A stretch of 64,000 nucleotides of DNA. Source: Cloeon dipterum. Its lineage: Eukaryota > Arthropoda > Insecta > Ephemeroptera > Baetidae. Below are positions 1-22,560 of the stretch, one piece after another. Position numbers and translations under genes: made by a program. How positions within the stretch are numbered: position 1 is the stretch's first letter; the number at the start of each line of letters is the position of its first letter. A model generated the notes under the pieces. That model made no database searches, was not told the origin of the DNA, and worked only from the letters and a program-made list of their open reading frames with translations. Location of the stretch: contig NC_088786.1 in NCBI RefSeq assembly GCF_949628265.1, positions 37,779,681 through 37,843,680 on the forward strand, given 5' to 3'.

Positions 1-1169
1 TGAGACGCCCCGCCAGCAGCCTTGCCAAGGCTGGGAGTCCCCAGGAGCACCTCTGGGGCATGCTGCAGTGAGAGGCGGTTGCCCTGGGCGCCCTGCTAGC
101 CGCCAAACACCTCGAAGCTGGCAGTTGGAGAGTGGTTGGCGACCGAGCTGGGTGGCGAAGGAGTTGTCTGCGTGTGGGGTGAGTGAAAACTGTTTTGCAT
201 GTGCAATATGTGTTTGGCATTCAGCTGTGGCCTTCCTTATTGCGCCATGTTGTGTGTTTTGTGCGCTGTGACTGATTCACTTTGATTTCAGGCATGTGAG
301 AGTCCAGACGGTGGCACGAGAGGTGCAGCAGTCAGTCTGAGACGCCCCGCCAGCAGCCTTGCCAAGGCTGGGAGTCCCCAGGAGCACCTCTGGGGCATGC
401 TGCAGTGAGAGGCGGTTGCCCTGGGCGCCCTGCTAGCCGCCAAACACCTCGAAGCTGGCAGTTGGAGAGTGGTTGGCGACCGAGCTGGGTGGCGAAGGAG
501 TTGTCTGCGTGTGGGGTGAGTGAAAACTGTTTTGCATGTGCAATATGTGTTTGGCATTCAGCTGTGGCCTTCCTTATTGCGCCATGTTGTGTTTTTTGTG
601 CGCTGTGACTGATTCACTTTGATTTCAGGCATGTGAGAGTCCAGACGGTGGCACGAGAGGTGCAGCAGTCAGTCTGAGACGCCCCGCCAGCAGCCTTGCC
701 AAGGCTGGGAGTCCCCAGGAGCACCTCTGGGGCATGCTGCAGTGAGAGGCGGTTGCCCTGGGCGCCCTGCTAGCCGCCAAACACCTCGAAGCTGGCAGTT
801 GGAGAGTGGTTGGCGACCGAGCTGGGTGGCGAAGGAGTTGTCTGCGTGTGGGGTGAGTGAAAACTGTTTTGCATGTGCAAAATGTGTTTGGCATTCAGCT
901 GTGGCCTTCCTTATTGCGCCATGTTGTGTTTTTTGTGCGCTGTGACTGATTCACTTTGATTTCAGGCATGTGAGAGTCCAGACGGTGGCACGAGAGGTGC
1001 AGCAGTCAGTCTGAGACGTCCCGCCAGCAGCCGTGCCAAGGCTGGAGCACCTCTGGGGCATGCTGCAGTGAGAGGCGGTTGCCCTGGGCGCCCTGCTAGC
1101 CGCCAAACACCTCGAAGCTGGCAGTTGGAGAGTGGTTGGCGACCGAGCTGGGTGGCGAAGGAGTTGGGA
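1..1169 (+). repeat. Left terminal tandem array, 337/326-bp units (cut by window edge)
   Basis: About four direct copies of one GC-rich unit. The landmark GAGGCGGTTGCCC recurs at about 72, 409, 746 and 1,072, giving spacings of 337, 337 and 326. The last, element-proximal unit lacks 11 bp (GAGTCCCCAGG) present in the other units. Each unit contains a splice-donor-like GGGGTGAGTG and an acceptor-like TTTGATTTCAGG oriented into the element. The same unit appears reverse-complemented at 18,500-22,310, so the two arrays form a long inverted pair around the intervening genes. Short ORFs on both strands of each unit recur only because the unit recurs. The true left end lies outside the window. Confidence 0.95.
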
Positions 1170-1367
1170 GGAAGGCAGGGTTAGTACGAGCTGTTCGATA
1201 GCAGCGTGCCCTCCCGGTGTGCTTGCCTGCGGTGTTCCTTTTGCTTGTGGTTGACCGACTGAGTGGTAATGCTTTTCTGCGTGACCTAACGTTTAGCAGG
1301 TGGAAATGTGAAATTGTTTTACTCCTGTACGATTTGCTGAAAATGATTTAACCCAGTGTGCCAATGT

Positions 1368-1406
<39 letters not shown>
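1368..1406. repeat. (GT)n microsatellite
   Basis: About 19 GT dinucleotides in the stretch between the left array and the first recognised helicase exon. The rest of 1,170-1,524 shows no clear coding sequence, although at least one upstream helicase exon must exist because the exon at 1,525 starts in mid-codon. Confidence 0.95.
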
Positions 1407-1407
<1 letters not shown>

Positions 1408-1524
1408 TGTGCATTTAGGTGGTAGCTGAAATGGTTGCTGAGCAATTTTCATTTTGCGGGGGATGTATGATATGTGGGGAAACGATTGTTGTGGTATCCT
1501 TTTGAAATAATTGTTTTTCTCCAG

Positions 1525-3717
1525 CGTCATCACCGGCCTGTACCTCGACCTCGCGAAGCTGGAGACCCTCCTGGACAGAGCTGGTGGCATTGCCAAGGTG
1601 ACATGCATTGACCAAGGCCGACCAGACCGACGAGCTGTATGGGAGGCACGACTGGAAGTGGAGCCGACACCTGAAGTCTACGTCTGCCTCGAAGCAACTG
1701 TTGGCGAGTGGTGTCAGCTCGAGGTTATTGGCGGCAGGCCCGTTGGTGGTACGTATCATTTTTTTAATTGACTGCTTAGGTGTAATTGTTGCAACTGCAG
1801 GCAAGATGCTGGTGAGGAGCCATGACCGTGGGACAGTTACGCTCACCGAGGGTGACGGAGCCAAGCTGTTGGACCGGGAGCTCCTTGTTGCCCTGTGGAA
1901 CCAGCGGTGCCGCCTGCAGTTCCTGCCAACCTTGGTGGGGCACCGTCTTAGGGTCACCGGCTCCGTCGATGGATTGAGTGCCCTTGCCGACTACTTCCAG
2001 GGAGGTGGCTTGGGAACAAAGGAGTGCGGCATCCCACTGGTGAGAAATCACTTTGATTGTGTGTTGATAGCTTTACTGACCCAATTGTTTCTGCCGCAGG
2101 TTGACGACCACCATCTTGCAGCGCTGAAGCGAGGAGAGGGATTCATGGACGAGATGCTCAACCAGGAGCAGAGGAGGGCTGTGGTGGAGATCCTGGAGCA
2201 CAGGCGGCCCCACGTCCCATACCTGCTGGTCGGCCCCCCAGGAACGGGAAAATCCGCAACCTTGGACGAGGTCGTGCTTCAGTTGGCTACCCACCACAAG
2301 GAGAAGAGGACACTTGACGCTCTGTGAGATCTTATTGGTTTGTGTAACTTGTTAACTAATTGATTTTCCTTTGTTTTCAGCATCTACTACGTGGTCCCGT
2401 CCAACCTGGGGGTTCGGTCGACCGCCGAAAGGTTGTTGCGGTTGGGAATGAGGAGCGAGCAACTGGTGCGCCTCTACTCGGAGCATGAGCACGTGAAGGG
2501 GACCGACCCCCTCAGAGACATCTCGCAGCGAGCTTCCCGGATGCAACACCTCATCACCACCAGCGTGGTCATCGGGACCCCCATCGCCATTGCTCGCATC
2601 GGGCTGACCCTTGGTGAGAGGAATCCACCGCCCCTTCTGTTGCTGGTAAGTTTTAATCAATTGTACAATTTTGTTTTGATTACATTTCATTTTTTTTTCA
2701 GCTGGACGAGGCAGCCTACATCAAGCTGGGAGAGGCCTTTGCGGCTCTGACGGCGAATGGAGAGCCTGTGCAGACTGTGCTTGCCGGGGACCGGAAGCAG
2801 CTTCGGCCACGCTGTTTCAGCAAGGTGGCCGAAAGCATGCATGGCAAGTACAGTCTGTTCGATTTGGCCGCCGACAGTGGATTCTTCGAGGATGATGGGT
2901 AAGTAGCATTGAGGCTGGATGGAACGGTAATTACCTAATCATGTTTCAGATTGAGGCCGAAGGAGGGGCTTGGTGTGATGCTGCGTCTCAACTATCGGGC
3001 CCACGAGAAGTTGGTGAGGGAGGTCTCCTGCCTGTTTTACAACGGACTGATGGTAAGCATGACATGCTCGAGTGACTGTTTTGTTATGACTTTTGTTTTG
3101 CATTTCAGATCCCTGGCCCAGCTAGCCTCCCCTCCAACAGCCTGCTGCTGCTGCGTTTCGGGCTGGAGAGACTGGGACTCGACGCGAACCAGAGCGCCAT
3201 CCGCTGGGTGGACATTGATGGTGCAATGCAACGCGACCCCCTCACCAGGTCCCTCTTCAACGTAGTGGAAGCCGACGCTGTGGTGTCCGTGGTGGACTCG
3301 CTGTGCCGGTGCATCCCCCCCCAACAGGTTACGGTGCTTGCACCGTACCGTAAGCAGGTATGTTGTGTGCCGAATTGTAACTAGTGGTGCAATGTTGATA
3401 ATTCTTCGTCTATGTTTCAGGTGGCGGTGCTCCGGGAGAAGCTCCCCCGTGACATCACTGTCTTCACTGCGGACGAGGTGATAGGCCAGGAGCGGCCTGT
3501 AATTGTGGTGTCACTGGTACGAAGCGACCGTGGAGAAGACAACGCGCGTGATCATGGGGTGGGCTTCTTGAGGGAGCCAAACAGGGTCAATGTTCTGATC
3601 AGCCGTGCCAAGGAGATCGTGATCCTGGTAGGCTCCAGGGCCCACTTCATCAGGAGTGGTGTTGGCTTTTGGGGAATCCTCCCAACCAGGGCTGAACCCC
3701 TCCCGGCACAGTTCTAA
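1525..3717 (+). CDS. Superfamily 1 RNA/DNA helicase, Upf1/MOV10-like (5' end not resolved)
   Basis: Eight exons encode 598 residues with consistent phases: 1525-1748, 1801-2039, 2100-2323, 2381-2645, 2702-2898, 2950-3052, 3109-3357 and 3421-3717. The helicase set is complete: Q-motif-like NQEQRRAVVEIL, Walker A GPPGTGKS (about 2,233-2,256), Walker B LDEA at 2,702, motif III GDRKQLRP, LRLNYR, TVLAPYRKQ, and motif VI NRVNVLISRAKE near the C-terminus. This order is that of Upf1-like SF1 helicases, with MOV10-type proteins the nearest match I recognise. The first exon begins with one base completing a codon, so an N-terminal exon is missing from this model; it may lie in 1,170-1,510, in the array or beyond. 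Introns are 51-64 nt. The gene converges on the recombinase gene with 376 bp between stop codons. ATP-dependent unwinding is known for the family; a role in replicating or moving this element is inference. Confidence 0.88.
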
Positions 3718-4093
3718 ACATGCTACTTATTTATTTCCAACTTTTCGGGACTTATTGGTGATTTCATATGGCGTGAAACGCTTCCCTTTGAATAATTACC
3801 TCGACACTGTTTTTGATACTAATCTTATGAATTTTGATAACCTTATTTTACATGTAATGATATATAATGTATTTTGAACTGACCATACTTGGTGACCTTA
3901 GACACATAAACTAGTGAATCCTTGAAATAACTGGTTGACGGTTTTTATTACACGTACTTCCTAGGCACAACCATTCACATGAGCATTTAACAGAGGAGGA
4001 AGTAACAATTGGTAACAAATGAAAGGAGAATAAAGCGTGATCCTTACATAACTGGGCATTGGTTGGCAACAAACAAAACTTCTAGTTAGAATA
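3718..4093. other. Convergent 3' intergenic region
   Basis: 376 bp between the helicase stop and the recombinase stop on the opposite strand. It is AT-rich with no ORF of note and presumably holds both 3' UTRs. A minus-strand AATAAA (TTTATT on +) lies near 3,944-3,950. Confidence 0.6.
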
Positions 4094-7000
4094 TTACTGA
4101 ACTTTCTTTGGGCGTCCTCTTTTCTTCTCAGGCAAACTTGAAACCCTGGAGAAACATTGAGTTAACTGAATTTGTTTCAACACTTCTATAAGAAATACCT
4201 GGTAATGCTGGAACTTGCGCGCTTCTTGGGAAACCGTTTTTCCTGGTTTGAGATGTCAGCAGCAGCGTCACTGTCTGCCGTCACAGGGGCAGATGCTTCC
4301 TTTCCTTTGGCAACAGTTTTGTTCTTGGAGCCCCGCGGTCGGCCTGGGCGTCGTTTCTGTGGCACCGTCAACGTGGGAACCTGTACCTGCGCTTCTGCAT
4401 TGCTAGTTTCATGCACGGATCTGTAAGGTGGTGTTAGCTTTGCGAATCTAGTCAGTTGAATTAAATTACCCTGAATCAGCCGAGATGTTGGTCTCTGCGG
4501 CGGACTCATTGCTGCTCGTTTCAGTTTCTTCTGCCTCACTTTCGGACTGCGCTGCTCTGTTAAAGTGATCATTATAAGTTACTCATCCAGCCATCAAGAT
4601 CCCTTGTTATACTTTTTCGTTTTCTTGCGTAGCGTCGGTTTATTCGGAGCTCTGACCTTGTTCTTGCTCCCGGGTTTGCGTCCCCGCCGTGGTTTAGTCG
4701 GCTGTGGTTTCACAGCAAGCTCTGCCTCTGCGGCTTCCTCATCCACGTCCTCAAAGAGAATGGCATCTTGGAGGTCCTCGATGCTGAAGCTGATGGAAGA
4801 AGGAGAAAGGTAATGTTAATACGTGGAATAGGGGGAAACGTGGAAGAAGATTTTTTTCAGCCGGTAAATCATAGGCGGCTGTCCAAGTTTTGTTTACGGG
4901 AAATACACTTACTCGTCTTCCGGGTCAGCATTGTCCGGTTGGGCAGCGGTTGTTCTGATCTCTGCTGCCTGTTCCAAGGTGGTTCCCTTGTGCTTTTGAA
5001 TGTTACCATCTTGGAAAATCTCTAGTGCTCTGCCGACCATCAGATTGAAACCAAGGCCCGTCGGAAGATCGTAGTACTGGTCGTGGACCGTGATTGAGTG
5101 TCCCATCAACAGGCACAGGAGCTTCTTTGAAGGTCCGCTAAGCTCCATCTGGCCCAAAGTTGTCGCGAAGGTCGTCCTGATGGCACGCGCCCTGAGGTCA
5201 TCAGGTCGTTCTGCAAGGCACGCTTCAGCAGCTGCTTTCTGCGGCCCTCTCACGTCCATCGGTTTTCCGTTTTTCGTGCCGAACAGGTAAATGCAACTCT
5301 CCGGAATGCCCGCCGCAGCACGCACTCCTTTGTCAGACAGGGTTGTGAAGTAGTCGCGCCATTCTGGTTTTAAGAGGGAAAGAACTTTGGTAGACCCTTT
5401 CCCGGTGGAGGTAAGCACGTCGTACCGCTCGGCCAGTTCTTGTTGCGCTTTTGATAGCGCATCGCTGTTCTTCCCCGAGTAATTGTTTCTCTCCTCATAG
5501 TTCTGCAGAGTAACGAAGCTTCCCTCAGTCGCCCTGCGAGCGTTGAAGGAACAGAAAGCCAGGTTCAAATGTGTTGCCAACGCCTTGTAGTGACACTCAA
5601 ACTCTGACTCTTTCTTCGCTTTCTGCAGGTGAATGTGGTGGTAGCTGCACATTCCTTCAAGGTGCGCGTTGTAGAGTTGCAGGTCGTGGGGTGACACGTG
5701 CGTCTTGTGGAGCTTCTCGCTGTTTTTCTTCTGCTTTGCAGCCCTTGTTGTCGTATAAATACGGTACCTCTTAGTTTCCAGGTATTCGATCAGCAACCGG
5801 CACTCTTCGGTCCACAATTTACGCTCGGCTTCGTCCTCGAACCGCTCCTGCTGCAACTCACTCGCTACTTGTCTGATGAGTGAGCTGAGCGTCATGACGT
5901 CATTGGGCCGCTTGAAATCTACCCTGTTTTCCTCACCGCCGCAGATGGTGTGGATGACCTCGATGATTCGGTCAGTCTTGCTTGCCGGTCGGTTACTGGG
6001 AAGCCCCTGCCAAACGGACCGCTTGCAGATGTCCCTCAGCGAGGTTACTAATCCAGGGATTTCTGCATGCACCTTGAAAGCGGTGTACAAAGCGTAGAGA
6101 AGGCGGATATTCCTCCGGCTGATTTGCACTCCGTTGTTGCCAGTTTCCTGCTGCAGGCCAAAATTTTTTACCACTCTGATCACCAGCTGATCATCTGTGA
6201 TGATGAAGCTGGCGATCCTTTTGTCACGCATGTTGTTAAGGATTTTGTCCACCGCAACCGTGTAGCTCTGGTCCAAATTTGTCCGGAGTTGCTCAATGCG
6301 GTTCAACTCGAGCAGGTCAACCGGTGGTGCTGGTTCTCGGGCCTCAACGCCTCGCCGAGTGCGGCAAATCTGCAAGTGCCTCTTGAAATTGCGGCTCGTG
6401 TGAAGTGTCAGGCAGTAGGGGCACTTGTTTGTTGTGCGAACGCTGGCTGTCTGGCTGCGCCGCGACGGTACCAGCGTGCCCTGCCTGCACTGCAATACTG
6501 TGGCGTTGTGCTGCTCGTTACCAAGGAGCCGCAATTCACTGAAGAAAGCTCTCATTCGTTCCGCGGATGGCTTCGCAGCGTACAGATCTTGGATTTCTGG
6601 CTCCTGCATGTGGCCCAACCGCAGATGCCTCATGATGTTCCCCCTAAAGTTCTTTCCGCAGAAATAGCAATATTGGTTCTTTTTCACGCCGGCGGCAAGA
6701 GCCAAGATCTTGACGGGCGTGGTCTTCACCTTCTTGTGAGGGGACAGAGTAAGGCATGAACCGCCCATGGCGGCAAATCTTCTCGAACCAGCTGCAATTG
6801 GACAGTTGGTACCGTAAGAAAAAACTGCAGTCATTATTTTTACATTGCCTACCCGCTTTTGTGAATGTTTCGTAAACTTTTCTCGTGTGTTTCTTCAGTA
6901 CCCCGCTGAACAGGTCGAATGCTCGCCACTCCGTGCCAGCATGCACGCCAAAGATGTATACCACTCCCTCTGCAGGATCAATATCCAGGGATTGAAAGGT

Positions 7001-8940
7001 AGATGTCAGGAAAGTGGCGCCTGGTGGCACAGACTGTGCTAGCAGTTGGTCCGCAGAGAGCAGTTCATTCATCAGTGCATAAAGGGCCTCTGTTGTGATG
7101 TACAGCTGGCCTGAAAAATTGCATCTTCACACTCCAAGGAGAGTTTACTTGGTTGCAATACTCACTGTAGACGATTTCAGCCTTACGGAGAACCTTCGGA
7201 TCACCACTTCTGTCCTGGGTCAGCCGATGCAGCTCAGGAAGCGACTGCAGTCCTGGGGACTGGCTGTCTGCGATGAGGAAGAAGTCGGGCATGTCATTCT
7301 TCCTTTCCATAGAGAAGAAAGTAATCTTGATTAAGTGCAACTTGTCATGGGGCACTGAAATGCAAATACAACGCGTGTTAGAACTGGTGTTTCATTCTTT
7401 TAATCGCGGAATGAATTTGCAAGAACCACCAGGAAGATGGAGGTATTACTTACACTCATTGCCTGGCGTCGCAGGCACCGCGTCATTGATCACTTTCTTC
7501 TCAGGTGTTTGTTGATCAGTCCGAGCTAAAAAGTGGAAATTTTAAATGTACTTTCAGTCCAGGAAGCCGAGGAACCGTAGATAGACGCAATTATTCCCTC
7601 GGAAAGACTATTACCAATTATAGCCGCCTGGTTTCCCTGCGGCTTCGAAACTCGGCTGGCAGCCGCCTCATCTGTCATTTCTTGCGACGAGGAGTCATCC
7701 GACTCTGCTGTGTCTGTTGACGACTCGTCGAAGCCGGCTCGGATGGATTTGTGAGCGGCGCCCCATCTTGGGATTGCAACATCAGGGCCTTCCAACGGAC
7801 GAGGCTTCTTCCTCTCGACCGGCTTCCACCCGCTGCATCCCGCTACTGGTTCGACTACAAACGAACGCGACACGAGGGATCGGCTTCCTTGGGTGTGTGC
7901 GCGCCTAGCACTGCCAAACTCGGCCGATTTTGTAGAGTGCGCGATGGCGGGTTCTTCACTCGAAGGCAGATGTCTCCCACACTGGCCACCAGGTGGCACA
8001 GGACTCATCAGTCTAGCGTACTCATAGTCCATTGGAGGGGAATCGAGCAGTGCGCGAGGCAGGAAATCACTTGTTCGACCAAACTGTCCCATGCTGGCGC
8101 CAGGAGTTGACAAAGCTGGCACCTGCTGGCCAGGTGTAGGTTGTGGCGCAGGCACAACCTTAGGAAGAGGCACCTCTAGAGGCGGCTCCGAAGTCATCCG
8201 GGCGCCAACAGACTGCCGAGAACTGTGCGAAATGAATTATTTTATTTTATTCGGTTCATTACATTAATTTTGTTGGCAGCGGCATTCAGCACATCAAAAT
8301 GAGTTTACAGCGATTGCCAAGTAAACGGACAACTTACACTCGGGAGGCGAGCATTGCAATCAACTTCGTTTGGTAGCGGCTGATCTTCACTGCATCGTTC
8401 TTCGTCTTGCTCAGAACGCTGAAGGCGGCGCCAGACTCTGATAAAGAATGAATTGTTTCGTGCACCTTACTTGGAATTAATTCTCAAAACGGAATGTTCT
8501 TACCGCCAGAGAAGACAACCAAACTGTCATGGCCATCTTTGTTCTTGACAACGTCATTAAAGGTCGGGGGGATCGCATTTTTTTCAATCTTCTTCAGTGA
8601 CACAACACCCTCAGTACTGACCAGCACCATGAACTTGAACTGCGCAAATCGGAACAGTTAATTAAATTCTTAAATGATACTGCGAAAGCTAGATTGACAA
8701 TTGATTGCGTTCGAGAAATTAGAAGCAGATGACAATTTTAAAAAATCATTCACTTCACGGATCGCAAACAAGCGAAAGAACAATTATTTTTAGAAAATTG
8801 ACGGTCCAAATCGATGAAACGTGCAAGTCCCAAGCAGAGATGCTTTTTCAGGTCGCTAGTAACTGCTTTCCTTATGAGGATGGCTCAAGAAATTGTTGAA
8901 ATTCTCGATTTCAGAAAATTCTCACCTTGTCGGACTGCAT
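4094..8940 (-). CDS. Tyrosine recombinase-like protein with zinc fingers and three AT-hooks
   Basis: Twelve coding exons on the minus strand, all phases consistent, encode 1,260 aa: 8940-8926, 8639-8504, 8437-8340, 8212-7615, 7525-7454, 7354-7166, 7110-6853, 6791-4913, 4789-4613, 4556-4470, 4420-4199 and 4145-4094. Residues 1-83 form a small unrecognised domain beginning MQSDKFKFMVLVS; 84-307 are Ser/Pro-rich and probably disordered. Two C2H2/C2HC fingers lie at about 497-516 (CYFCGKNF...H...H) and 579-598. The recombinase core is near 860-1,035: FNARR (Arg about 875), TGKGSTK (Lys about 920), AIRTTFATT (Arg 994), LMGHS (His 1,020) and a YYDLP tyrosine (1,028/1,029). The usual box II His before the second Arg is replaced. 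AT-hooks RRGRKP (1,116), RRPGRPR (1,193) and KRGRPKK (1,252) form the tail. It resembles animal Crypton-like YR proteins; activity is not proven. It is divergent from the BEN gene at 9,199. Confidence 0.86.
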
Positions 8941-9198
8941 GGCTGAACCGATTGAGCGGGGCGCGTGTTGCTTGGCGCGTAAATCCGCAAGGGCATTGCA
9001 CATCCGCTGCACATCCACTGCAGATCCACTGCACATCCACTGCCAGAAGGGCCTGGCGCGAAAATCAGTTCTCCAGTTGTTACCAGTTGCAGATAGTAGC
9101 GTGGCCATTGTTGCATCACTCTGACTTGACACGAGGTGCAAATCACACAACTTGGAAATCGCAACTAACGGCCATCCGCTTCTATCTGGCCCTCCAAT
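8941..9198. promoter_or_regulatory. Divergent promoter with four 11-bp iterons
   Basis: 258 bp separate the recombinase and BEN1 start codons. At 8,997-9,040 lie four head-to-tail 11-bp copies of TGCACATCCAC (variants TGCACATCCGC and TGCAGATCCAC), about one helical turn each. Two related boxes flank them: TTGGCGCGTAAATC (about 8,971-8,985) and CTGGCGCGAAAATC (about 9,051-9,065). Read on the other strand, the second contains TTTTCGCGCC, a good match to the known E2F consensus. Coordinated or autoregulated expression of the two genes is inference. Confidence 0.6.
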
Positions 9199-10288
9199 AT
9201 GCTTCGTCGGACCAAGAAACCGTGTAACTGCACCCACTGCCTCGCGAAAGAGGAAACGGTGAGCTGTTATCCATGCAATGTCTGCGTACTGGGGCACAAC
9301 ACGTTGGACTGCTCGCCATTTCAGGTCATTCCAGCCATCCCAGAGAATCTTTGGGAGACCTACAAGGACGCTAGGAGGATGGAGGTCGATGCACAGATGA
9401 AGGTGCTCCACTTGGAAGTTGCAGTTCAGAATGCTACGCAGCGGCAAATGTACGAGTGCGAAGTGGAAATGGCCACGCTGAGACATGAAAGTGAGCAAAT
9501 TTCGCGTACAATCCGGTGTAATTGTAATATAATGTGCGAACATCCCTTTCCAGTTAGAAAAGAGCATGATTTTTTCCAAAACCAGTTGGAATTCAAAACC
9601 CCTGGCGACATCAGCAAGGACGGAACGAAGGTTAGTAAAATTTTGGTTATCCGTCCCTCCATCGAGTATAATTTTTCACTAAATGACGCAACAAAAAATA
9701 TTATATTGTAACACAACGCTCAAACATGTTATAATATTTGCTTACGAGTGAGTCAGTTGTTCAAAATTAGGAGGGGAAAAATTTTATTGGCCTCGTAGGG
9801 TATTCAAAAATAATAAAATCTCAGTCAGAATTGCAAACTCCCTCAAACATGCATTGCTTTCAGGTCTTATTTGTAGAATGTTGTCAAGGGACAGCCTTCC
9901 TCGACAAGGAATATGTCAATCTATGCTCGAGAGGCGCTCGGTCAGCTCGGGAGCTGTTGTGGCGGCTCGTGTGTCGTCATTTCACGGGACCCGCCATTAT
10001 CACCTGCGGCATCGAAGAAGGACACGGCCTGCAACAACTCCATCCTCCTACGATGCACGCCATTTGCTGTCAGTAACAAAATTAATTTTGAATTTCTGTG
10101 CCCTCATTCTGGACTCACTCATGGTTTCAGCCATCGTCAGTGACGTAGCATCGAGTGTTCCGAGCTCGGACCCAAGGAAGGAGAACTTCAGCGAGGACTG
10201 CACGAGCATTTCCACTATCAAGGAAAGCCTGCGGAGGCTCAGGCAGCACATCAGGAGTACAGACAATTATCGAAAATCACTGCACTGA
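9199..10288 (+). CDS. BEN-domain protein (BEN1)
   Basis: Five exons give 221 aa with a clean stop: 9199-9258, 9325-9490, 9554-9630, 9864-10068 and 10131-10288. The N-terminus is Cys-rich (CNCTHC), followed by a charged helical stretch with coiled-coil character (about 25-75). From about residue 102 the protein reads like a BEN domain: FLDKEYVNLCSRG, then ARELLWRLVCRHF, then LQQLHPPTMHAICSIVSDV, matching the family's helices and its terminal pattern (final helix around 'LHPPTMHAI'). BEN domains bind DNA and occur in chromatin repressors and some viral or mobile-element proteins. The first intron is only 66 nt and in frame, so a retained-intron form adding CYPCNVC and more cysteines is possible. 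A DNA-binding partner for the element's repeats is inferred. Confidence 0.75.
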
Positions 10289-11191: not shown

Positions 11192-12871
11192 ATGCAACAA
11201 GAGTCGGAAACCATGGAAGGCCTGGCAGACTCGGTCACCATTGACATGAGTGCGCCCGAAAGGGACCCACTGGCCCTCGACTTCGTCCACAACAGTCCGT
11301 CATGTGAGTTAAAATCAACCCCCCCTATAAGCTGCAATACTCAACTCTCATTTATTTCCACTCAGGTGATCCCCTGCATGATTCGATTACGGAGGTCGTA
11401 GTTGGTCTTGGTCAAGGAAGAGAGTCGGGTGAGTAAAAAAGTTAATTGCATGTTGTCCTATTTGTATTTAAATTTCGCTCATTTCTTTCGAACGCAGTCC
11501 GCGAAGAAACCACAGCACAGTCCCCCACCAGGCCTGACGCAGCTGTCCCCCCCCAAACCAAGCGACGACTATTCCAGGACAAGAAGCCAAGCGAAGAGGA
11601 GGGCCAGGAACAAGAGTCAGAACAGTCTGACGAATACTCCGGCAGTGAGTACGTTCAAGGTAAGCACTCTTATTTTTACTACCCAGATTGCATGACATTA
11701 ATGCTCTTCTATCCAGAAGAAGAAGACAGCCAGTCCGGTGCGTCGACTTCGAGCCACACAGACAGTGAGCGTCAGAAGCGACCTCTCCGACCACCTCCAG
11801 CTTCGGACAGTCCAGAGATGGCAGACGCTCGTATGGAGCCGGCAGAGGACGACGAACTTGCTGCGCAAGTGGCAGGTGAGCTACAGGTTATATTACTGTT
11901 GAGGAAACATCTTTTAATAACTATTGTGCAATTTTCAGCTCTGAGGACGAGGAACGCTGCGTTGGCAGCGGCCAAGTTGGAACTCGTGCAGCGGGTAGCC
12001 TCCCTAGAAGCAAAGAAGGCCCGTCTCATGGAGGAGAACCAAACGTTGCGTGACGAAGCGGCTGTCAACGATCAAAGAGTGGCTCACCTCAAGAAGGCTC
12101 GGAGGGAATTCAAGCACCAGAACCTCGAGACGGTCCACTCTCTCCAACAGGCGGTCGCTGAGCCTGGAACCAGCAAGCACACAGAGGCCACTTACTGGTA
12201 AGACCAAATTTGAAACGCTCGTCATGCTTGTACTTCACAATTCTTGTTCTAGGACCAACATGAACGCTGTCGGCCAACGACTCAGCGAGCACGGTTGGCA
12301 GAAGGTTCTGCTGAATGACCCCAACCTACCAAAAAAGGTGAGTTATACCTAACACTGAATAATTAATGATTTTAATCTTTATTTCTTTTCAGGTTCCATC
12401 GTGTGTCACTTCAAAGAAGGGCAACATCGGCATCGAGCAGGACGACATCGATGAGTGCTACGAGGATGGCAGCGGATCCTTGTACTCGGTGATGCGGCAC
12501 GTGGCAATCAACCTCTTCAGGATCGAGAACCTCCTGTATTTCAGCTACGGAGGCACCAGGAGCACAAGGCGGCAAAAGGCAACCATGGCACTTCCCAAAG
12601 AGCTGAAGAATGAGTTTCTCGGTAAGTCTTTCTTGATTAAAAATTTACAATTAATTGAATAATTCTTTCCTTTGCAGACCTGGCCGGAAAAATCATTGCC
12701 AACACCAAGTACAAGTGGTACATCAGGTCGAAAGAGGTCACCATCAAGGAAATCGACATCAAGCGCATTGCCAAGAAAGCGCTCATCAATCTGATGACGG
12801 AGCGGCGCCCAAAGTTCAAACCTACCAAAGAAGACACAAGTTCCTCAGAGTCCGAAGACGATTCGGATTAA
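11192..12871 (+). CDS. Coiled-coil and BEN-like domain protein (BEN2)
   Basis: Nine exons with agreeing phases give 420 aa: 11192-11303, 11366-11428, 11498-11659, 11717-11875, 11939-12197, 12253-12337, 12393-12621, 12678-12871 (the first ATG sits one base after an acceptor, implying a 5' UTR exon). Residues 1-165 are acidic, Ser/Glu-rich and likely disordered. About 166-245 form a leucine-zipper coiled coil (LRTRNAALAAAKLELVQRV then LEEN-type heptads). From about 280, IGIEQDDIDECYEDG, LYSVMRHVAINLF and ALPKELKNEFL resemble a diverged BEN domain. A Lys-rich segment and an acidic SSSESEDDSD tail follow. A polyadenylation-like AATAAA occurs near 12,963. A dimeric DNA-binding protein is the likely reading; the BEN assignment is weaker than for BEN1. 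Confidence 0.72.
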
Positions 12872-13164
12872 TTTCCATGTCCGATACTGATTGGCAGCTA
12901 CCTTCAGTTACATTTTGCATTGTAATTATTTTCATATGCGTGATACACTGCTTGTTACCACAAATAAATTAACCATTCCAAAAATTTCATTGTTTTCTTT
13001 AACATTCCATGGCATTGCTCGCAGCAAACACGATTTTAATTTCTACAGTTTGTCGCAATTTCCATATTGCTCTAATACAATTTTTTCAATTGTTCGTGCA
13101 ACACGTTTCGTTATAAACAAAATCACGCTACGTTAACCCTTTCCCTCCGTTGCTGATTGTTTTC
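12872..13164. other. Spacer between BEN2 and the internal satellite
   Basis: 293 bp of AT-rich sequence with the BEN2 3' UTR at its left. I see no gene or clear motif in the remainder. Confidence 0.6.
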
Positions 13165-15350
13165 CGACAGTTAAATTGAACTGGATCTGCATTGCCGTGG
13201 CAGCGTAACCGCCATGGCCGAAACAGTAATTTTCGGATTTTGGCCGACGATTTCGATAAAAATTGCTTCGCGAATTATTCCGCGAATAATTACACAAAAA
13301 TTAAGTGGATGTGGTGCGGAATTAAATTTTTTTTTTCCGACAGTTAAATTGAACTGGATCTGCATTGCCGTGGCAGCGTAACCGCCATGGCCGAAACAGT
13401 AATTTTCGGTTTTTGGGCGAAATTTCCACGTCAACTTGCTTCCCGAGTGATTCCTCAACTAACTTTACAAAAATTTTTAATGAAACAGTGAAATTTGAAT
13501 TTTTTGAGCGACAATAGAAATTACACCATGCAACGCGACTAGGATCGCACTCAGCTTTATTTGGCGATCAAAGTGCTAAACTGGCAGCGGATCTGCATTG
13601 CCGTGGCAGCGTAACCGCCATGGCCGAAACAGTAATTTTCGGATTTTGGCCGACGATTTCGATAAAAATTGCTTCCCGAATTATTCCGCGAATAATTACA
13701 CAAAAATTAAGTGGATGTGGTGCGGAATTAAATTTTTTTTTTCCGACAGTTAAATTGAACTGGATCTGCATTGCCGTGGCAGCGTAACCGCCATGGCCGA
13801 AACAGTAATTTTCGGATTTTGGCCGACGATTTCGATAAAAATTGCTTCGCGAATTATTCCGCGAATAATTACACAAAAATTAAGTGGATGTGGTGCGGAA
13901 TTAAATTTTTTTTTTCCGACAGTTAAATTGAACTGGATCTGCATTGCCGTGGCAGCGTAACCGCCATGGCCGAAACAGTAATTTTCGGTTTTTGGGCGAA
14001 ATTTCCACGTCAACTTGCTTCCCGAGTGATTCCTCAACTAACTTTACAAAAATTTTTAATGAAACAGTGAAATTTGAATTTTTTGAGCGACATTAGAAAT
14101 TACACCATGCAACGCGACTAGGATCGCACTCAGCTTTATTTGGCGATCAAAGTGCTAAACTGGCAGCGGATCTGCATTGCCGTGGCAGCGTAACCGCCAT
14201 GGCCGAAACAGTAATTTTCGGATTTTGGCCGACGATTTCGATAAAAATTGCTTCGCGAATTATTCCGCGAATAATTACACAAAAATTAAGTGGATGTGGT
14301 GCGGAATTAAATTTTTTTTTTCCGACAGTTAAATTGAACTGGATCTGCATTGCCGTGGCAGCGTAACCGCCATGGCCGAAACAGTAATTTTCGGTTTTTG
14401 GGCGAAATTTCCACGTCAACTTGCTTCCCGAGTGATTCCTCAACTAACTTTACAAAAATTTTTAATGAAACAGTGAAATTTGAATTTTTTGAGCGACAAT
14501 AGAAATTACACCATGCAACGCGACTAGGATCGCACTCAGCTTTATTTGGCGATCAAAGTGCTAAACTGGCAGCGGATCTGCATTGCCGTGGCAGCGTAAC
14601 CGCCATGGCCGAAACAGTAATTTTCGGATTTTGGCCGACGATTTCGATAAAAATTGCTTCCCGAATTATTCCGCGAATAATTACACAAAAATTAAGTGGA
14701 TGTGGTGCGGAATTAAATTTTTTTTTTCCGACAGTTAAATTGAACTGGATCTGCATTGCCGTGGCAGCGTAACCGCCATGGCCGAAACAGTAATTTTCGG
14801 ATTTTGGCCGACGATTTCGATAAAAATTGCTTCGCGAATTATTCCGCGAATAATTACACAAAAATTAAGTGGATGTGGTGCGGAATTAAATTTTTTTTTC
14901 CGACAGTTAAATTGAACTGGATCTGCATTGCCGTGGCAGCGTAACCGCCATGGCCGAAACAGTAATTTTCGGTTTTTGGGCGAAATTTCCACGTCAACTT
15001 GCTTCCCGAGTGATTCCTCAACTAACTTTACAAAAATTTTTAATGAAACAGTGAAATTTGAATTTTTTGAGCGACATTAGAAATTACACCATGCAACGCG
15101 ACTAGGATCGCACTCAGCTTTATTTGGCGATCAAAGTGCTAAACTGGCAGCGGATCTGCATTGCCGTGGCAGCGTAACCGCCATGGCCGAAACAGTAATT
15201 TTCGGATTTTGGCCGACGATTTCGATAAAAATTGCTTCCCGAATTATTCCGCGAATAATTACACAAAAATTAAGTGGATGTGGTGCGGAATTAAATTTTT
15301 TTTTCCGACAGTTAAATTGAACTGGATCTGCATTGCCGTGGCAGTTGATC
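13165..15350 (+). repeat. Internal higher-order satellite (A-B-C units of about 580 bp)
   Basis: Monomers share a core of TGCATTGCCGTGGCAGCGT followed by AACCGCCATGGCCGAAACAG, at about 13,185, 13,360, 13,590, 13,765, 13,940, 14,168, 14,346, 14,578, 14,750, 14,922, 15,155 and a terminal part-copy at 15,326. Three monomer types alternate: A (about 173 bp, with TTCGCGAATTATTCCGCGAA), B (about 240 bp, with a GCGACATTAG/GCGACAATAG stretch and AACGCGACTAGG) and C (about 165 bp, TTCCCGAATTATT). The order is ABC-ABC-BC-ABC-a, so one A monomer has been lost. Copies are nearly identical, implying recent homogenisation. Long minus-strand ORFs inside (about 95-102 codons) recur with the repeat and are not evidence of a protein. 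Confidence 0.92.
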
Positions 15351-15543
15351 TGCAAGCCCAAACGGTTACTGCAGTGGGCGTGGAGTGCATCTGCAAAATC
15401 TCATGAATCACTTTCAGCAACTCTGCTCAACCTTCCAATTTTGGACTTTTACTGCAATTCTCCAAGGCTGTCCTTCGTGCTTACACTAATTCTGCGCATA
15501 AATTGCTTCAAGTGACACACTGTTGCCACGCAATTTCTCAAAA

Positions 15544-18352
15544 ATGCGGCCACTTGGATCATATGCCCAATTTGGCAATCAGTTCTGCAAAATTGTCAGT
15601 GCAGAGGAAGATCAGGCATTCAGGTCCCCGGCAATTTACCACATCACAGTGCTCGAGTGAGTCTTTTCGAACGAACCATTACAATATCTCGCAGCTCTAA
15701 TTTATTCCCATAGGCGAGTTGCTAAGACTCTCATCCAGAACGGACCGCCAAATGAGTTGGTCCAAATTAAAGGATGCCATTACGTGGAAGACAGGGCCCT
15801 CCGTGATACTATTCGAGTTCTACCATCCATGCAGGAGGCTTCTACAGATGCTTCATATTTCTGCAGACTCTAGTACTTATAATACACTTAAACAACAAGT
15901 TTTGCCTAATTAGCGATTAAACACTCGTGCAGTTTTGATGGATCCTCGTTCCTACCAACAATGATTTTCAACGAACAAGACAAGTGGTGCCCTTGCAGGT
16001 ATTCAAGCAAACGAAAGATGCTGGCGCACGTCACAACGGACGGATTGAATGGCCTAACTTCTGTAACACATCATTTTAATATTCAAAAGGCCAACAAAAA
16101 CTCTATCAAATGTTTCATTATGGTGTCACAGGTGCGGTTCGGCTCGTCCGTTGCTATTGAGAAGGGGACATGCTTAGCCACAACACTCAAATCAGAGCAA
16201 TTGCCAGAAGTGCCTGGACAAAAATTACTCCGCGTTGTCCGCGTTGACAAAATCAAGGTCAAAAAAACCGGTGACAAAAAATCAGACCAGGTACTCGCTG
16301 CATCAAAGATTCGGTTGGCTGTCACTTGCTTTGTCAGACCTCCTGAGACCAACAGTTGTTCGCAAGAATCGCCTGCAAATCTTCTACACTTGTCTTCATA
16401 CAGTGAATATACTCATTTAACAAAACCCTCCGCTTTTTTTAAAACCATCTTCACTACCATTCACAGAAACTGAAATTTCTGGTGCACTTTTCGTCGCGGT
16501 CGTTAACGTCTCGTTCCATAACACACTGGAAGTGAAGTACACAACCGACATCGATCAATACGGAACGGCCACATACATCTGCAACAGTCTCCTAGACATG
16601 CAAACCAACCAAGTTGTATTGCCTGCTTCCATCCCAAAATTAGTAATTGAATTCATTTATGCTAACAGCTTTCGATGCTTGATGGCTCCCTTGCTTCAAC
16701 AAAGAGTGTTACTCCGTCACTCGAATCAAATCCACTCCGATGCCTAGATCTGTTCTGCGGCTGCGGAGGATTATCCCTAGGGTTGGAGATGAGCCACCTG
16801 ACAACCTGCCTTTGGGCAGTTGACGCAGACCCTACAGCGTGCAAATCCTTCGCTGCCAACTTCAGACAAGCAACAGTGTACCAAAGTTCAGCCATTGACT
16901 GGTTGAAAGAACTAAAAACGGTAACTTGTTCGAGCACAACACCAAGGAAGATTAATACTCCTAAATCCAAAATAGGGAGCATTGTTCACAAAAAAGGGAC
17001 AGAAGCTGCCACAAACCGGCGAGGTGGAAATGATTATTGGAGGACCGCCGTGCCAAGGATTCTCCAAATTAAATAGATTCAAAAACAACAACACCTCAGT
17101 CACAAACGTAACTACTTAGAATTCACTAAAATCAACTTTCCATTGTTTCTTTCATGCCATTCTTCAGAAATCACAAGTTCCAGTGTTTCTGGAAATCGTC
17201 GCCTACTTCAGGCCTAAGTGCTTCTTGATGGAAAATGTCAAATCCTTCATCACAGAGGATGGTGGAAAACACTTTCTGGCAGCGCTGCAGGCAACCAAAG
17301 ACTTGGGTTATTATTTCAACTTCAATGTCTTACAGGCTGCTGATTTCGGCGCACCTCAACAACGCCCTAGGTTGTCCTCTCCAAAACTTCACTAATCCCA
17401 CTAACAACATTTCCCAATCTGCTAGGTTCTTCCTGTTTGGCACCCTCGACAGCAGACGGCTGGCTGCAGCACCAATAAGCACCCATTACTCTGGTCTGGA
17501 AGTCACAAGTGTCAAAGCAGCCAGTCATACTCTGGTACCAATTCATGCTTTCCACCACTGCCTAATTCGTAGCTTCCTTCCCCCTACAGTCATTCACGGA
17601 CAAACAGGAAGCTTACTTTCAAAAAGTTACTGTGCACCACGCCATTGCTGATTTGCCAGATGTTGAGCCACAAGAGAGCGGCAACAAAATCAGCTACAAC
17701 TCAATCAACTCAACTTTCCAATTCAAAGTGAGTATAACAATCATTTCAATCCGAAACTATTAATAACATTTCTTCACAGATGAGGAATGGCAGTGACACT
17801 TTGCGATTGCATAAGCTCCCCACGTCACTGAATCCAGATGACCAAAAAAGGATCACAATGATCCCGCCAGGGTCAGACTGGCGATGCCTACCTCAGTCAG
17901 AACACGAGGAATGCTTCAAAACGTTTGCGCTAACTTCGCTTAAAATTTATTTAAAATTAATCTTCCTCTTCTCTACTTCCATTAGAGGCATGCCCCTTGC
18001 ACCTAAGTCACTGGTAAAGTCCTCTCGCTCTAATGGTGACTGGAAAGGAGCTTATGGCAGACTGCGATGGTCCGACCTCTTCATGACAGTTTTAACAAGA
18101 CCAACCCTTGCTTCTAAGACTGGGACAATCATCCATCCTATCTACAATAGAACCCTGACAATACGAGAGTTTGCACGAGCACAGACCTTTCCAGACAACT
18201 TCAAATTCAAAGGGACCATAGCTCAAGTTCAGCGACAGGTAGCCTATCTAAGTCATTAAAGCCCTTTGATAATTAATAATATTGCTCTACAGATTGGAAA
18301 CGCGGTACCCCCCCTTCTGGCTGAATCACTCGGACGTGCATTCAAAATCTAA
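15544..18352 (+). CDS. DNMT1-type DNA (cytosine-5) methyltransferase
   Basis: Twelve exons with consistent phases give 725 aa: 15544-15656, 15714-15872, 15933-16402, 16467-16612, 16669-16920, 16976-17107, 17168-17370, 17426-17534, 17590-17727, 17780-17922, 17986-18238 and 18293-18352. The N-terminal 290 residues look like diverged BAH modules (for example [12 protein letters not shown] and FVRPPETN). The catalytic half has motif [13 protein letters not shown], motif [11 protein letters not shown] with its catalytic Cys, motif VI MENV, motif VIII QQRPR and motif X IGNAVPP. The stretch [10 protein letters not shown] just before motif IV is characteristic of DNMT1 rather than DNMT3. There is no RFTS or CXXC region, and the target-recognition segment is short. 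It transfers methyl groups from SAM to cytosine, presumably in the nucleus. Base composition is more AT-rich than the helicase and recombinase genes, suggesting separate origin. The ATG at 15,544 is the first in frame after a stop; an upstream exon cannot be excluded. Confidence 0.88.
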
Positions 18353-18499
18353 CAAAACGTACGCCTCATTCTCCTCTTTCATAACAACACGAGTCATATT
18401 CAATAAAATTTTTACTTCATAACTGTGTATTTATTTCCATTCATTACATTCCATTCCTGCACAGTCCCTCCAATGGCTGCCACCAGCATGAAGACCGAA
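18353..18499. other. DNMT 3' flank
   Basis: Short AT-rich stretch with a polyadenylation-like CAATAAAATT near 18,401 followed by the first base pairs leading into the right array. No gene seen. Confidence 0.6.
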
Positions 18500-21400
18500 G
18501 CATGGCCGGCGAGCAGGGCGCCCAGGGCAACCGCCTCTCACTGCAGCATGCCCCAGAGGTGCTCCAGCCTTGGCACGGCTGCTGGCGGGGCGTCTCAGAC
18601 TGCCTGCTGCACCTCTCGTGCCACCGTCTGGACTCTCACATGCCTGAAATCAAAGTGAATCAGTCACAGCGCACAAAAAACACAACATGGCGCAATAAGG
18701 AAGGCCACAGCTGAATGCCAAACACATATTGCACATGTAAAACAGTTTTCACTCACCCCACACGCAGACAACTCCTTCGCCACCCAGCTCGGTCGCCAAC
18801 CACTCTCCAACTGCCAGCTTCGAGGTGTTTGGCGGCTAGCAGGGCGCCCAGGGCAACCGCCTCTCACTGCAGCATGCCCCAGAGGTGCTCCTGGGGACTC
18901 CCAGCCTTGGCAAGGCTGCTGGCGGGGCGTCTCAGACTGCCTGCTGCACCTCTCGTGCCACCGTCTGGACTCTCACATGCCTGAAATCAAAGTGAATCAG
19001 TCACAGCGCACAAAAAACACAACATGGCGCAATAAGGAAGGCCACAGCTGAATGCCAAACACATATTGCACATGTAAAACAGTTTTCACTCACCCCAACA
19101 CGCAGACAACTCCTTCGCCACCCAGCTCGGTCGCCAACCACTCTCCAACTGCCAGCTTCGAAGTGTTTGGCGGCTAGCAGGGCGCCCAGGGCAACCGCCT
19201 CTCACTGCAGCATGCCCCAGAGGTGCTCCAGCCTTGGCACGGCTGCTGGCGGGACGTCTCAGACTGACTGCTGCACCTCTCGTGCCACCGTCTGGACTCT
19301 CACATGCCTGAAATCAAAGTGAATCAGTCACAGCGCACAAAAAACACAACATGGCGCAATAAGGAAGGCCACAGCTGAATGCCAAACACATATTGCACAT
19401 GTAAAACAGTTTTCACTCACCCCACACGCAGACAACTCCTTCGCCACCCAGCTCGGTCGCCAACCACTCTCCAACTGCCAGCTTCGAGGTGTTTGGCGGC
19501 TAGCAGGGCGCCCAGGGCAACCGCCTCTCACTGCAGCATGCCCCAGAGGTGCTCCTGGGGACTCCTAGCCTTGGCAAGGCTGCTGGCGGGGCGTCTCAGA
19601 CTGACTGCTGCACCTCTCGTGCCACCGTCTGGACTCTCACATGCCTGAAATCAAAGTGAATCAGTCACAGCGCACAAAAAACACAACATGGCGCAATAAG
19701 GAAGGCCACAGCTGAATGCCAAACACATTTTGCACATGCAAAACAGTTTTCACTCACCCCACACGCAGACAACTCCGTCGCCACCCAGCTCGGTCGCCAA
19801 CCACTCTCCAACTGCCAGCTTCGAGGTGTTTGGCGGCTAGCAGGGCGCCCAGGGCAACCGCCTCTCACTGCAGCATGCCCCAGAGGTGCTCCAGCCTTGG
19901 CACGGCTGCTGGCGGGGCGTCTCAGACTGACTGCTGCACCTCTCGTGCCACCGTCTGGACTCAGACATGCCTGAAATCAAAGTGAATCAGTCACAGCGCA
20001 CAAAAAACACAACATGGCGCAATAAGGAAGGCCACAGCTGAATGCCAAACACATTTTGCACATGCAAAACAGTTTTCACTCACCCCACACGCAGACAACT
20101 CCGTCGCCACCCAGCTCGGTCGCCAACCACTCTCCAACTGCCAGCTTCGAGGTGTTTGGCGGCTAGCAGGGCGCCCAGGGCAACCGCCTCTCACTGCAGC
20201 ATGCCCCAGAGGTGCTCCTGGGGACTCCCAGCCTTGGCAAGGCTGCTGGCGGGGCGTCTCAGACTGACTGCTGCACCTCTCGTGCCACCGTCTGGACTCT
20301 CACATGCCTGAAATCAAAGTGAATCAGTCACAGCGCACAAAAAACACAACATGGCGCAATAAGGAAGGCCACAGCTGAATGCCAAACACATATTGCACAT
20401 GCAAAACAGTTTTCACTCACCCCACACGCAGACAACTCCTTCGCCACCCAGCTCGGTCGCCAACCACTCTCCAACTGCCAGCTTCGAGGTGTTTGGCGGC
20501 TAGCAGGGCGCCCAGGGCAACCGCCTCTCACTGCAGCATGCCCCAGAGGTGCTCCAGCCTTGGCACGGCTGCTGGCGGGACGTCTCAGACTGACTGCTGC
20601 ACCTCTCGTGCCACCGTCTGGACTCTCACATGCCTGAAATCAAAGTGAATCAGTCACAGCGCACAAAAAACACAACATGGCGCAATAAGGAAGGCCACAG
20701 CTGAATGCCAAACACATATTGCACATGCAAAACAGTTTTCACTCACCCCACACGCAGACAACTCCGTCGCCACCCAGCTCGGTCGCCAACCACTCTCCAA
20801 CTGCCAGCTTCGAGGTGTTTGGCGGCTAGCAGGGCGCCCAGGGCAACCGCCTCTCACTGCAGCATGCCCCAGAGGTGCTCCTGGGGACTCCCAGCCTTGG
20901 CAAGGCTGCTGGCGGGGCGTCTCAGACTGACTGCTGCACCTCTCGTGCCACCGTCTGGACTCTCACATGCCTGAAATCAAAGTGAATCAGTCACAGCGCA
21001 CAAAAAACACAACATGGCGCAATAAGGAAGGCCACAGCTGAATGCCAAACACATTTTGCACATGCAAAACAGTTTTCACTCACCCCACACGCAGACAACT
21101 CCGTCGCCACCCAGCTCGGTCGCCAACCACTCTCCAACTGCCAGCTTCGAAGTGTTTGGCGGCTAGCAGGGCGCCCAGGGCAACCGCCTCTCACTGCAGC
21201 ATGCCCCAGAGGTGCTCCAGCCTTGGCACGGCTGCTGGCGGGACGTCTCAGACTGACTGCTGCACCTCTCGTGCCACCGTCTGGACTCTCACATGCCTGA
21301 AATCAAAGTGAATCAGTCACAGCGCACAAAAAACACAACATGGCGCAATAAGGAAGGCCACAGCTGAATGCCAAACACATATTGCACATGTAAAACAGTT

Positions 21401-22310
21401 TTCACTCACCCCACACGCAGACAACTCCTTCGCCACCCAGCTCGGTCGCCAACCACTCTCCAACTGCCAGCTTCGAGGTGTTTGGCGGCTAGCAGGGCGC
21501 CCAGGGCAACCGCCTCTCACTGCAGCATGCCCCAGAGGTGCTCCTGGGGACTCCCAGCCTTGGCAAGGCTGCTGGCGGGGCGTCTCAGACTGCCTGCTGC
21601 ACCTCTCGTGCCACCGTCTGGACTCTCACATGCCTGAAATCAAAGTGAATCAGTCACAGCGCACAAAAAACACAACATGGCGCAATAAGGAAGGCCACAG
21701 CTGAATGCCAAACACATATTGCACATGTAAAACAGTTTTCACTCACCCCAACACGCAGACAACTCCTTCGCCACCCAGCTCGGTCGCCAACCACTCTCCA
21801 ACTGCCAGCTTCGAAGTGTTTGGCGGCTAGCAGGGCGCCCAGGGCAACCGCCTCTCACTGCAGCATGCCCCAGAGGTGCTCCAGCCTTGGCACGGCTGCT
21901 GGCGGGACGTCTCAGACTGACTGCTGCACCTCTCGTGCCACCGTCTGGACTCAGACATGCCTGAAATCAAAGTGAATCAGTCACAGCGCACAAAAAACAC
22001 AACATGGCGCAATAAGGAAGGCCACAGCTGAATGCCAAACACATATTGCACATGTAAAACAGTTTTCACTCACCCCAACACGCAGACAACTCCTTCGCCA
22101 CCCAGCTCGGTCGCCAACCACTCTCCAACTGCCAGCTTCGAAGTGTTTGGCGGCTAGCAGGGCGCCCAGGGCAACCGCCTCTCACTGCAGCATGCCCCAG
22201 AGGTGCTCCTGGGGACTCCCAGCCTTGGCACGGCTGCTGGCGGGGCGTCTCAGACTGACTGCTGCACCTCTCGTGCCGCCGTCTGGACTCTCACATGCCT
22301 GAAAACAAAG
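18500..22310 (-). repeat. Right terminal tandem array, alternating 326/337-bp units
   Basis: Twelve reverse-complement copies of the left-array unit. The landmark CCGCCTCTCA occurs at 18,531, 18,857, 19,195, 19,521, 19,858, 20,184, 20,521, 20,847, 21,184, 21,510, 21,848 and 22,175. Spacings alternate strictly between 326-327 and 337-338, because units with and without an 11-bp segment alternate. The true repeat period is therefore a dimer of about 663 bp. Small shared variants (CACATATTGCACATG versus CACATTTTGCACATG) also move in blocks. The donor- and acceptor-like sites point leftwards, into the element. Confidence 0.95.
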
Positions 22311-22560
22311 TTAATCAGTCACTGTCCATAAAATACATGATATAGCGCAATAAGGAAGGCCAAAAATCAATGCCTTACACATATTTCAATTTTAAAACTG
22401 TTTCCACTCACCCCGCCACGCAGCCAACTCCGTCCTCACCCAGCTCGGTCCCCTAACACTCTCCAACTGCCAAGTTAGCGGTGCTTGGCAGCAAGCAGGG
22501 CGCCCAGGGCATACACCTGGCCCTGCTGCATGCAACGCTGGGCGCCTACGGGGACTTAAA
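22311..22560 (-). repeat. Degenerate outermost array unit
   Basis: A thirteenth, strongly diverged copy: the CAATAAGGAAGGCC core, the donor-like region (AAACTGTTTCCACTCACCCC) and the AGCAGGGCGCCCAGGGCA block are still recognisable. It ends near a GC-rich imperfect inverted repeat (GGGCGCCCAG ... CTGGGCGCCT at 22,498-22,547). This is the best candidate for the outer right end of the element. Confidence 0.7.

Follow-up and report, generated by a model that had tools for sequence, protein, structure and literature searches.

Several described systems resemble in part the candidate giant mobile element reported here, which lies in a 64,000-bp stretch of the genome of the mayfly Cloeon dipterum (NC_088786.1, positions 37,779,681 to 37,843,680; hereafter the window). 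Cryptons are DNA transposons based on a tyrosine recombinase (YR) and occur in insects; the relevant part of the published Crypton survey describes animal Cryptons as lacking terminal repeats and other Cryptons as having direct repeats of 4–6 bp (PMC3212892). Starships, as outlined in summary accounts, are giant, YR-based, gene-carrying elements of Pezizomycotina fungi with diverse cargo. Foldback-type elements (FB, Galileo, and Tetris) are described in the cited sections as having inverted end regions that contain tandem repeats, Tetris with long terminal inverted repeats (TIRs) and an outer flanking domain (PMC4079207), and Galileo is placed in the P superfamily (PMC4168063). Mobile elements that encode cytosine methyltransferases are represented by retrotransposons of dinoflagellates and charophytes; the cited passages list LINE, DIRS-like, or Gypsy elements, name Dnmt3-related enzymes and no Dnmt1, and report fewer CGs in SymbioLINE-DNMT elements (PMC5890265). 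Among arthropods, crustacean nimaviruses and decapods carry YRs, some with C2H2 regions and some encoded by multiple exons, which according to the sections cited lie mostly within large viral genomes (300–360 kb in pemoniviruses; PMC10871703).

Based on the comparisons below, the mayfly element is very probably a recently active giant DNA transposon of the YR type, 24.7–28.4 kb in length. It shares with Cryptons a YR and a short direct terminal repeat, whereas its 25–28 kb, five genes, inverted end motifs, and inverted tandem arrays set it apart from them by description, and it does not fit the animal-Crypton pattern of no terminal repeats and little beside the YR. Like Starships, it is giant, YR-based, and gene-carrying; in contrast to their diverse cargo, the genes that we tested persist across large divergence, and its YR gene has an internal position. 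It differs from Foldback-type elements in that its arrays lie inside the ends, the outer parts resemble each other in a short motif only rather than forming long TIRs that reach the termini, a YR is present, and no P-type transposase was found in the protein pieces scanned. In contrast to the methyltransferase-carrying retrotransposons, it is an animal DNA element with a DNMT1-type enzyme, and the nimavirus and decapod YRs could be compared with it by description alone. No reverse transcriptase of DIRS or other YR retroelements was matched in the protein pieces scanned, a set that left out the stretches between genes. No description of the element was recognized among the papers listed by searches of an open-licence PubMed Central library, Repbase and subscription journals being outside the search.

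To define the extent of the element, we compared its copies across the genome to which the window belongs, which comprises 190 Mb in 10 contigs. Five equal best places for the methyltransferase marked five copies on four contigs, namely two on C1, the contig of the window, and the others on C2, C3, and C5. The copies were 24,693 to 28,355 bp long, the latter being the length of the window copy, whose left end lies 5,333 bp before base 1 (C1:37774348, window coordinate −5,332) and whose right end lies at 23,022. The sequence-only reading, an earlier interpretation of the window, had drawn the element from 1 to 22,560 with the arrays as its ends; the extent is here corrected to −5,332 to 23,022, with the arrays subterminal (1.3 kb inside the left end and 0.46 kb inside the right end). 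Beyond the arrays, common sequence continued for 1.29 kb on the left and 0.46 kb on the right, then stopped at the same point in all five copies, and the flanks were unrelated. All five are near-identical copies with identical ends at unrelated sites, as expected of a mobile element. Pairwise differences amounted to 3–13 substitutions over 16.8 kb of unique sequence (ten pairs), and the YR exon was open and 100% identical over 626 amino acids (aa) at every locus. The five gene models were likewise open in 5/5 copies (for the methyltransferase, the catalytic part), and 68–70 of the 70 exon/intron border stretches per copy were identical to those of the window copy. The insect substitution rate is about 3e-9 per site and generation, at which the divergence of the five copies would correspond to roughly 30,000–130,000 generations.

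The termini pointed to the mode of insertion. The left terminus reads AGTATTTGAGTAGTGTCACTTATAGCATC and the right terminus GATGCCATAAGTGACGCTATTCTGTTTATAGAG, with one base different in copy B, and AG was present at both ends of every copy. Six copies of a 15-bp end motif, GTCACTTRTRGCATC, oriented both ways, were located within 140 bp of the left terminus, and a single inverted copy lay close to the right one; genome-wide, 35 of the 85 exact sites of the motif fell in the five copies, and the pattern read backwards had none. When the element ends were joined, the two motif arms matched at 14 of 15 positions. The empty site was examined for copy D, one of the five, which interrupts an 81-bp satellite. 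Its flanks joined via a single AG were identical to 51 exact intact sites in the surrounding satellite, and the flanks joined with no AG or with AGAG had no occurrence there. The insertion of copy D was precise: it was made around one target AG and removed nothing from the target. In copies W and C (2/5), the base before AG differed between the left and right junctions, so that their shared part is exactly AG. Judged from these junctions, the terminal pattern would fit a recombination crossover at AG.

The opposite-facing arrays of a 337/326-bp unit that the sequence-only reading had described, together with an internal satellite, are present (Table 1). A profile of the unit located both arrays and matched nowhere else in the window, with two sub-threshold matches inside the right array. 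Units were 98.2–99.7% identical between the arrays (3 full left versus 11 full right units) and 97.2–100% identical within the right array, except for its outermost unit, which is much older (83% identical). Because 128 of the at least 134 unit matches in the genome fell in the arrays of the five copies, the array is a part of the element rather than a free satellite. The other six were located at C2:36.40 Mb, C2:36.92 Mb, and C5:1.18 Mb, near further recombinase, methyltransferase, or end-motif matches. A 25-base stretch of the unit had no exact match in viral contigs. Four helicase exons separate the left terminus from the left array, which is contained in intron 4 (5.7 kb) of this gene model, and the outer 1,292 bp and 456 bp had in common only motif-sized matches of 25 bp or less. 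The earlier suggestion that inverted tandem arrays at the ends of an element were undescribed does not hold as worded, since inverted ends with internal tandem repeats are reported for Foldback-type elements in the part of the literature cited (PMC4079207).

Next, we focused on the recombinase. The YR gene product shows, by eye, C2H2-like fingers and three AT-hook-like motifs in its C-terminus. Tyrosine recombinases share the motif R...K...(H/R)xxR...H...Y, and the YR has it with normal spacing (119 residues from R420 to R539 and 35 from R539 to Y574), with Arg536 in place of the usual His of HxxR. These active-site residues were invariant in 4/4 aligned sequences, namely that of the window and three relatives. 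The Pfam match to Phage_integrase was below the cut-off (E 0.052), and a protein search with the whole YR exon returned no relatives; a search by region found three metagenome proteins that were 41–48% identical to residues 300–600, and a profile search found a fourth, a partial C. dipterum protein (P0004) that was 82% identical over a third of the query. P0004 has no intact counterpart in the window's genome (best 83%), and its residues 1–84 belong to another sequence that is repeated at many places in that genome. The captain YRs of Starships are of the DUF3435 kind, and no Pfam match of that kind was found in any of the four YR family members at E ≤ 1. A single-sequence AlphaFold model of the YR exon was rejected as useless (pLDDT, the predicted local distance difference test, 35). 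A model from the four-sequence alignment was partial and of low confidence (45.7); Foldseek could not place it, and VIA-align listed Xer recombinases, a transposon integrase, and type IB topoisomerases within its first 14 rows. On this model, the predicted fold of the catalytic domain is that of a YR.

The exon chains of the five genes follow the GT-AG rule, with introns mostly of 49–123 bp, and are open, as the sequence-only reading had proposed for four of them. After letter shuffling, none of 2,000 trials each yielded an open chain for the helicase, the YR, or the methyltransferase, the three chains so tested. The helicase chain comprises 598 aa in the window and 755 aa in one open frame with the four exons left of it. 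It matched AAA_12 (E 1.4e-33) and AAA_11 (E 4.4e-14), the two halves of Upf1-like superfamily 1 (SF1) helicases, and its nearest solved structures were SMUBP-2 and Nam7/Upf1. For the methyltransferase, the 26 best PDB rows were all named DNMT1 (E 1.9e-69 to 8.3e-44), compared with 1e-11 for DNMT2. Further N-terminal exons, read by eye, probably lie between 15,549 and 16,660. The N-terminus of DNMT1 carries RFTS, CXXC, and BAH domains; none of these had a Pfam match in window positions 15910–16473 or 16466–16660, where exon borders are unsettled. The name BEN given earlier to the two small genes is unconfirmed: neither 'BEN1' nor 'BEN2' had a Pfam BEN match, and the relevant part of either had no PDB match at E ≤ 10.

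Table 1. Features of the element in window coordinates (negative positions lie left of the window)
Feature	Position	Strand	Remarks
Element part inside window	1..23022	+	ends from comparison of five copies
Left tandem array, inner end	1..1195	+	337/326-bp unit; runs ~4 kb further left; in helicase intron 4
SF1 helicase (Upf1/SMUBP2-like), exons 5-12	1525..3717	+	exons 1-4 at -4889 to -4206
Tyrosine recombinase gene, 11 exons	4094..8639	-	1,259 codons in chain, 1,256 from first ATG
YR active site	5071..5535	-	R420 5533-5535, K465 5398-5400, R539 5176-5178, H565 5098-5100, Y574 5071-5073; numbering of window:4914-6792:-
Gene 'BEN1', 221 aa, 5 exons	9199..10288	+	BEN-like by eye alone
Gene 'BEN2', 413 aa, 8 exons	11213..12871	+	BEN-like by eye alone
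Internal 173/406-bp satellite	13160..15344	.	observed/expected CpG ratio 1.66
DNMT1-type cytosine methyltransferase, catalytic domain, 8 exons, 420 aa	16669..18352	+	PF00145 E 2.4e-60
Right tandem array, same 337/326-bp unit inverted	18505..22566	-	about 12 copies
Right copy of 15-bp end motif GTCACTTRTRGCATC	22990..23004	-	comparison of ends
Right terminal AG	23021..23022	.	common to left terminus and, for copy D, target

We then compared the element with older relatives in the same genome, testing the order of the helicase, YR, BEN1, and methyltransferase genes and leaving out BEN2. The relative F, at C2:35,676,659 to about 35,703,050, lies 1.3 Mb from the C2 copy, its right end being placed by analogy. 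F has end motifs at both ends and the gene order of the window element, with the YR on the opposite strand. Its inverted arrays consist of its own 377-bp unit (10 matches on the left, +; 5 on the right, −), which had no significant similarity to the 337-bp unit. Its left terminus is CAG, as is the right if that end is rightly placed; the window family has NAG on the left and GAG on the right. Between the window element and F, the ratio of nonsynonymous to synonymous substitution rates (dN/dS) was 0.085 for the YR and 0.152 for the helicase, with synonymous sites near saturation and the helicase pairs taken from translated matches that possibly include short intron pieces. The aligned parts contained no stop, and by this sequence measure the YR gene is under strong purifying selection. 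A 55-bp stretch with GT at its start and AG at its end interrupts the YR exon of F near residue 546; we took it for a putative intron, the alternative being a disruption. Four of the remaining seven matches of the 377-bp unit were found at C5:1.166–1.174 Mb, two per strand. At that place (C5:1,166,251–1,174,211), these units enclose matches to the helicase and the methyltransferase but none to the YR; this is probably an internally deleted relative.

A more diverged family, whose YR pieces were 36–52% identical, was found at C4:6.63–6.65 Mb, C2:36.86–36.87 Mb, C2:36.19–36.20 Mb, C2:36.41–36.42 Mb, and C5:1.13–1.15 Mb, each locus having helicase, methyltransferase, and YR matches. Two of these loci were 99.94% identical over 3,192 bp; therefore, recent movement or copying applies to this family as well. 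One of its ends is formed by an array of another unit, 368 bp long, found at three of its loci only. Inverted arrays had been expected here, but the unit occurred in a single orientation (16/16 matches at the 3 loci), so that inverted pairs were seen for the window's family, F, and the four matches on C5. These data suggest conservation of the array structure and not of its sequence, with unrelated inverted arrays in two relatives and another, one-sided array in a third family. Grouping of matches within 15 kb gave 33 groups, of which 11 had helicase, YR, and methyltransferase, 5 had two of the genes, and 17 had one; the grouped matches were hand-picked with each locus represented (45/103 helicase, 34/46 YR, and 21/35 methyltransferase), and at least two of the 11 three-gene groups merge neighbouring elements. 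Methyltransferase matches with no helicase or YR match nearby, at C1:5,543,547, C2:6,904,444, and C3:34,442,396, are probably host DNMT genes.

The proposal of the sequence-only reading that the five genes form one transposing unit is borne out by the five near-identical copies with sharp ends, the order kept in F, the three genes found together in the diverged family, and the exact empty site of copy D. That reading had named genes at unrelated loci, with the arrays an ordinary satellite, as the outcome that would speak against it; instead, the genes travel together, and the unit is concentrated in the element.

Several other features were recorded in the window. An 11-bp tandem repeat, TGCACATCCAC, with 4.3 copies lies at 8,997–9,043 between the divergent YR and BEN1 genes and is a possible promoter element. 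A putative open frame of 79 aa, read by eye, occupies 22,604–22,843 (+) between the right array and the right end. Outside the element, positions 23,023–64,000 contain segmentally duplicated blocks clustered around repeated leucine-rich repeat (LRR)-like open frames with weak LRR matches, the long blocks being about 84–97% identical; this looks like an ordinary expanded gene family. Scans of the window with Rfam and for tRNAs gave 0 matches, tandem TTAGG telomere repeats were absent from it, and a PHROGs search gave nothing useful.

To look for a methylation footprint, we examined dinucleotide frequencies. The observed/expected CpG ratio was 0.74–0.81 in the five copies, compared with 0.88–1.75 in nine of ten flanks and 0.70 in the tenth. 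TpG and CpA were raised (about 1.3) in the copies, and GpC stayed inside the flank range. Single units from three unrelated arrays had CpG ratios of 0.52, 0.43, and 0.60. The internal satellite has a CpG content opposite to the rest of the element. Because the five copies are young, their CpG depletion was inherited from the active lineage, and such depletion would be consistent with long-term germline methylation; we infer the element's own DNMT as its cause. Against a strong present effect of methylation, CpG transitions made up 2 of the 20 columns variable among copies and none of the 11 variable among array units; the variation by CpG decay expected in the arrays was not seen (11/338 columns variable, 0 in CpG context).

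Some of these observations weigh against a transposon moved by its own YR. The AG on both sides in 5/5 copies would also suit a fixed target duplication of 2 bp, and the YR gene lies internally on the opposite strand; a real transposon might be moved by another transposase, with the YR having another job such as resolving dimers or arrays. We consider this unlikely. In the pieces scanned against Pfam, which made up part of the element, no other transposase or integrase domain exceeded the cut-off; one YR relative had a sub-threshold Tc5 C-terminal match (E 0.07). The YR active site is kept, and the gene is under strong purifying selection. Joining of the ends places the end motif in inverted orientation on either side, like the YR sites described in the relevant part of the Crypton survey (PMC3212892).

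A spliced YR with C2H2-like fingers, accompanied by a helicase, also recalls the nimaviral YRs, and the locus might be an endogenous large DNA virus or its remnant. This is very unlikely, since the six protein pieces exceeded Pfam cut-offs for helicase and methylase families only (the left 5.3 kb and the intergenic stretches being outside that scan); no relative of the YR or of the helicase was found in viral contigs. The YR had none in bacterial or archaeal contigs either. The duplicated blocks in the window flank and the crowding of most older relatives near contig ends, at C2:35.67–37.1 Mb and C5:1.05–1.2 Mb with the five young copies outside, would suit a segmental duplication or an ordinary gene cluster flanked by satellite, with no transposon at all. 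We give this explanation almost no credence: the same boundaries recur at five unrelated sites, the flanks are not co-duplicated, one copy has an exact empty site, and the array unit is nearly confined to the element. For the five young copies, the common sharp ends refute this explanation.

For the YR-mobilized transposon that we favour, the following mechanism can be proposed. The element-encoded YR would bind the 15-bp motifs inverted near both termini and join the two ends at AG, excising a circle, which would insert into AT-rich DNA at an AG. Replication, DNA binding, or expression may be aided by the helicase and the two small proteins. Germline methylation of the element, chiefly of its arrays, would be maintained by the DNMT1-like enzyme and may quiet the element or tame it for the host. 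We regard as evenly balanced the broader proposal that these elements constitute a new superfamily of giant animal DNA transposons, mobilized by a YR, with a fixed multi-gene set, inverted subterminal arrays replaced wholesale between relatives with the architecture kept, and a self-encoded maintenance methyltransferase of the DNMT1 type by which the element is methylated in the germ line.

Since the five copies have diverged so little, living animals can be searched for segregating insertions and perhaps for activity. The keeping of array structure over sequence raises the question of what use the array is to the element. Giant cargo-carrying YR transposons are known from fungi; a counterpart in an animal, recently active and stable in its gene set, would extend this lifestyle beyond fungi. 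An element-borne DNMT1 makes it testable whether mobile elements encode their own maintenance methylation, and whether this benefits the element or the host; if that is true, the epigenetic state of this animal DNA transposon would be written by the transposon itself.
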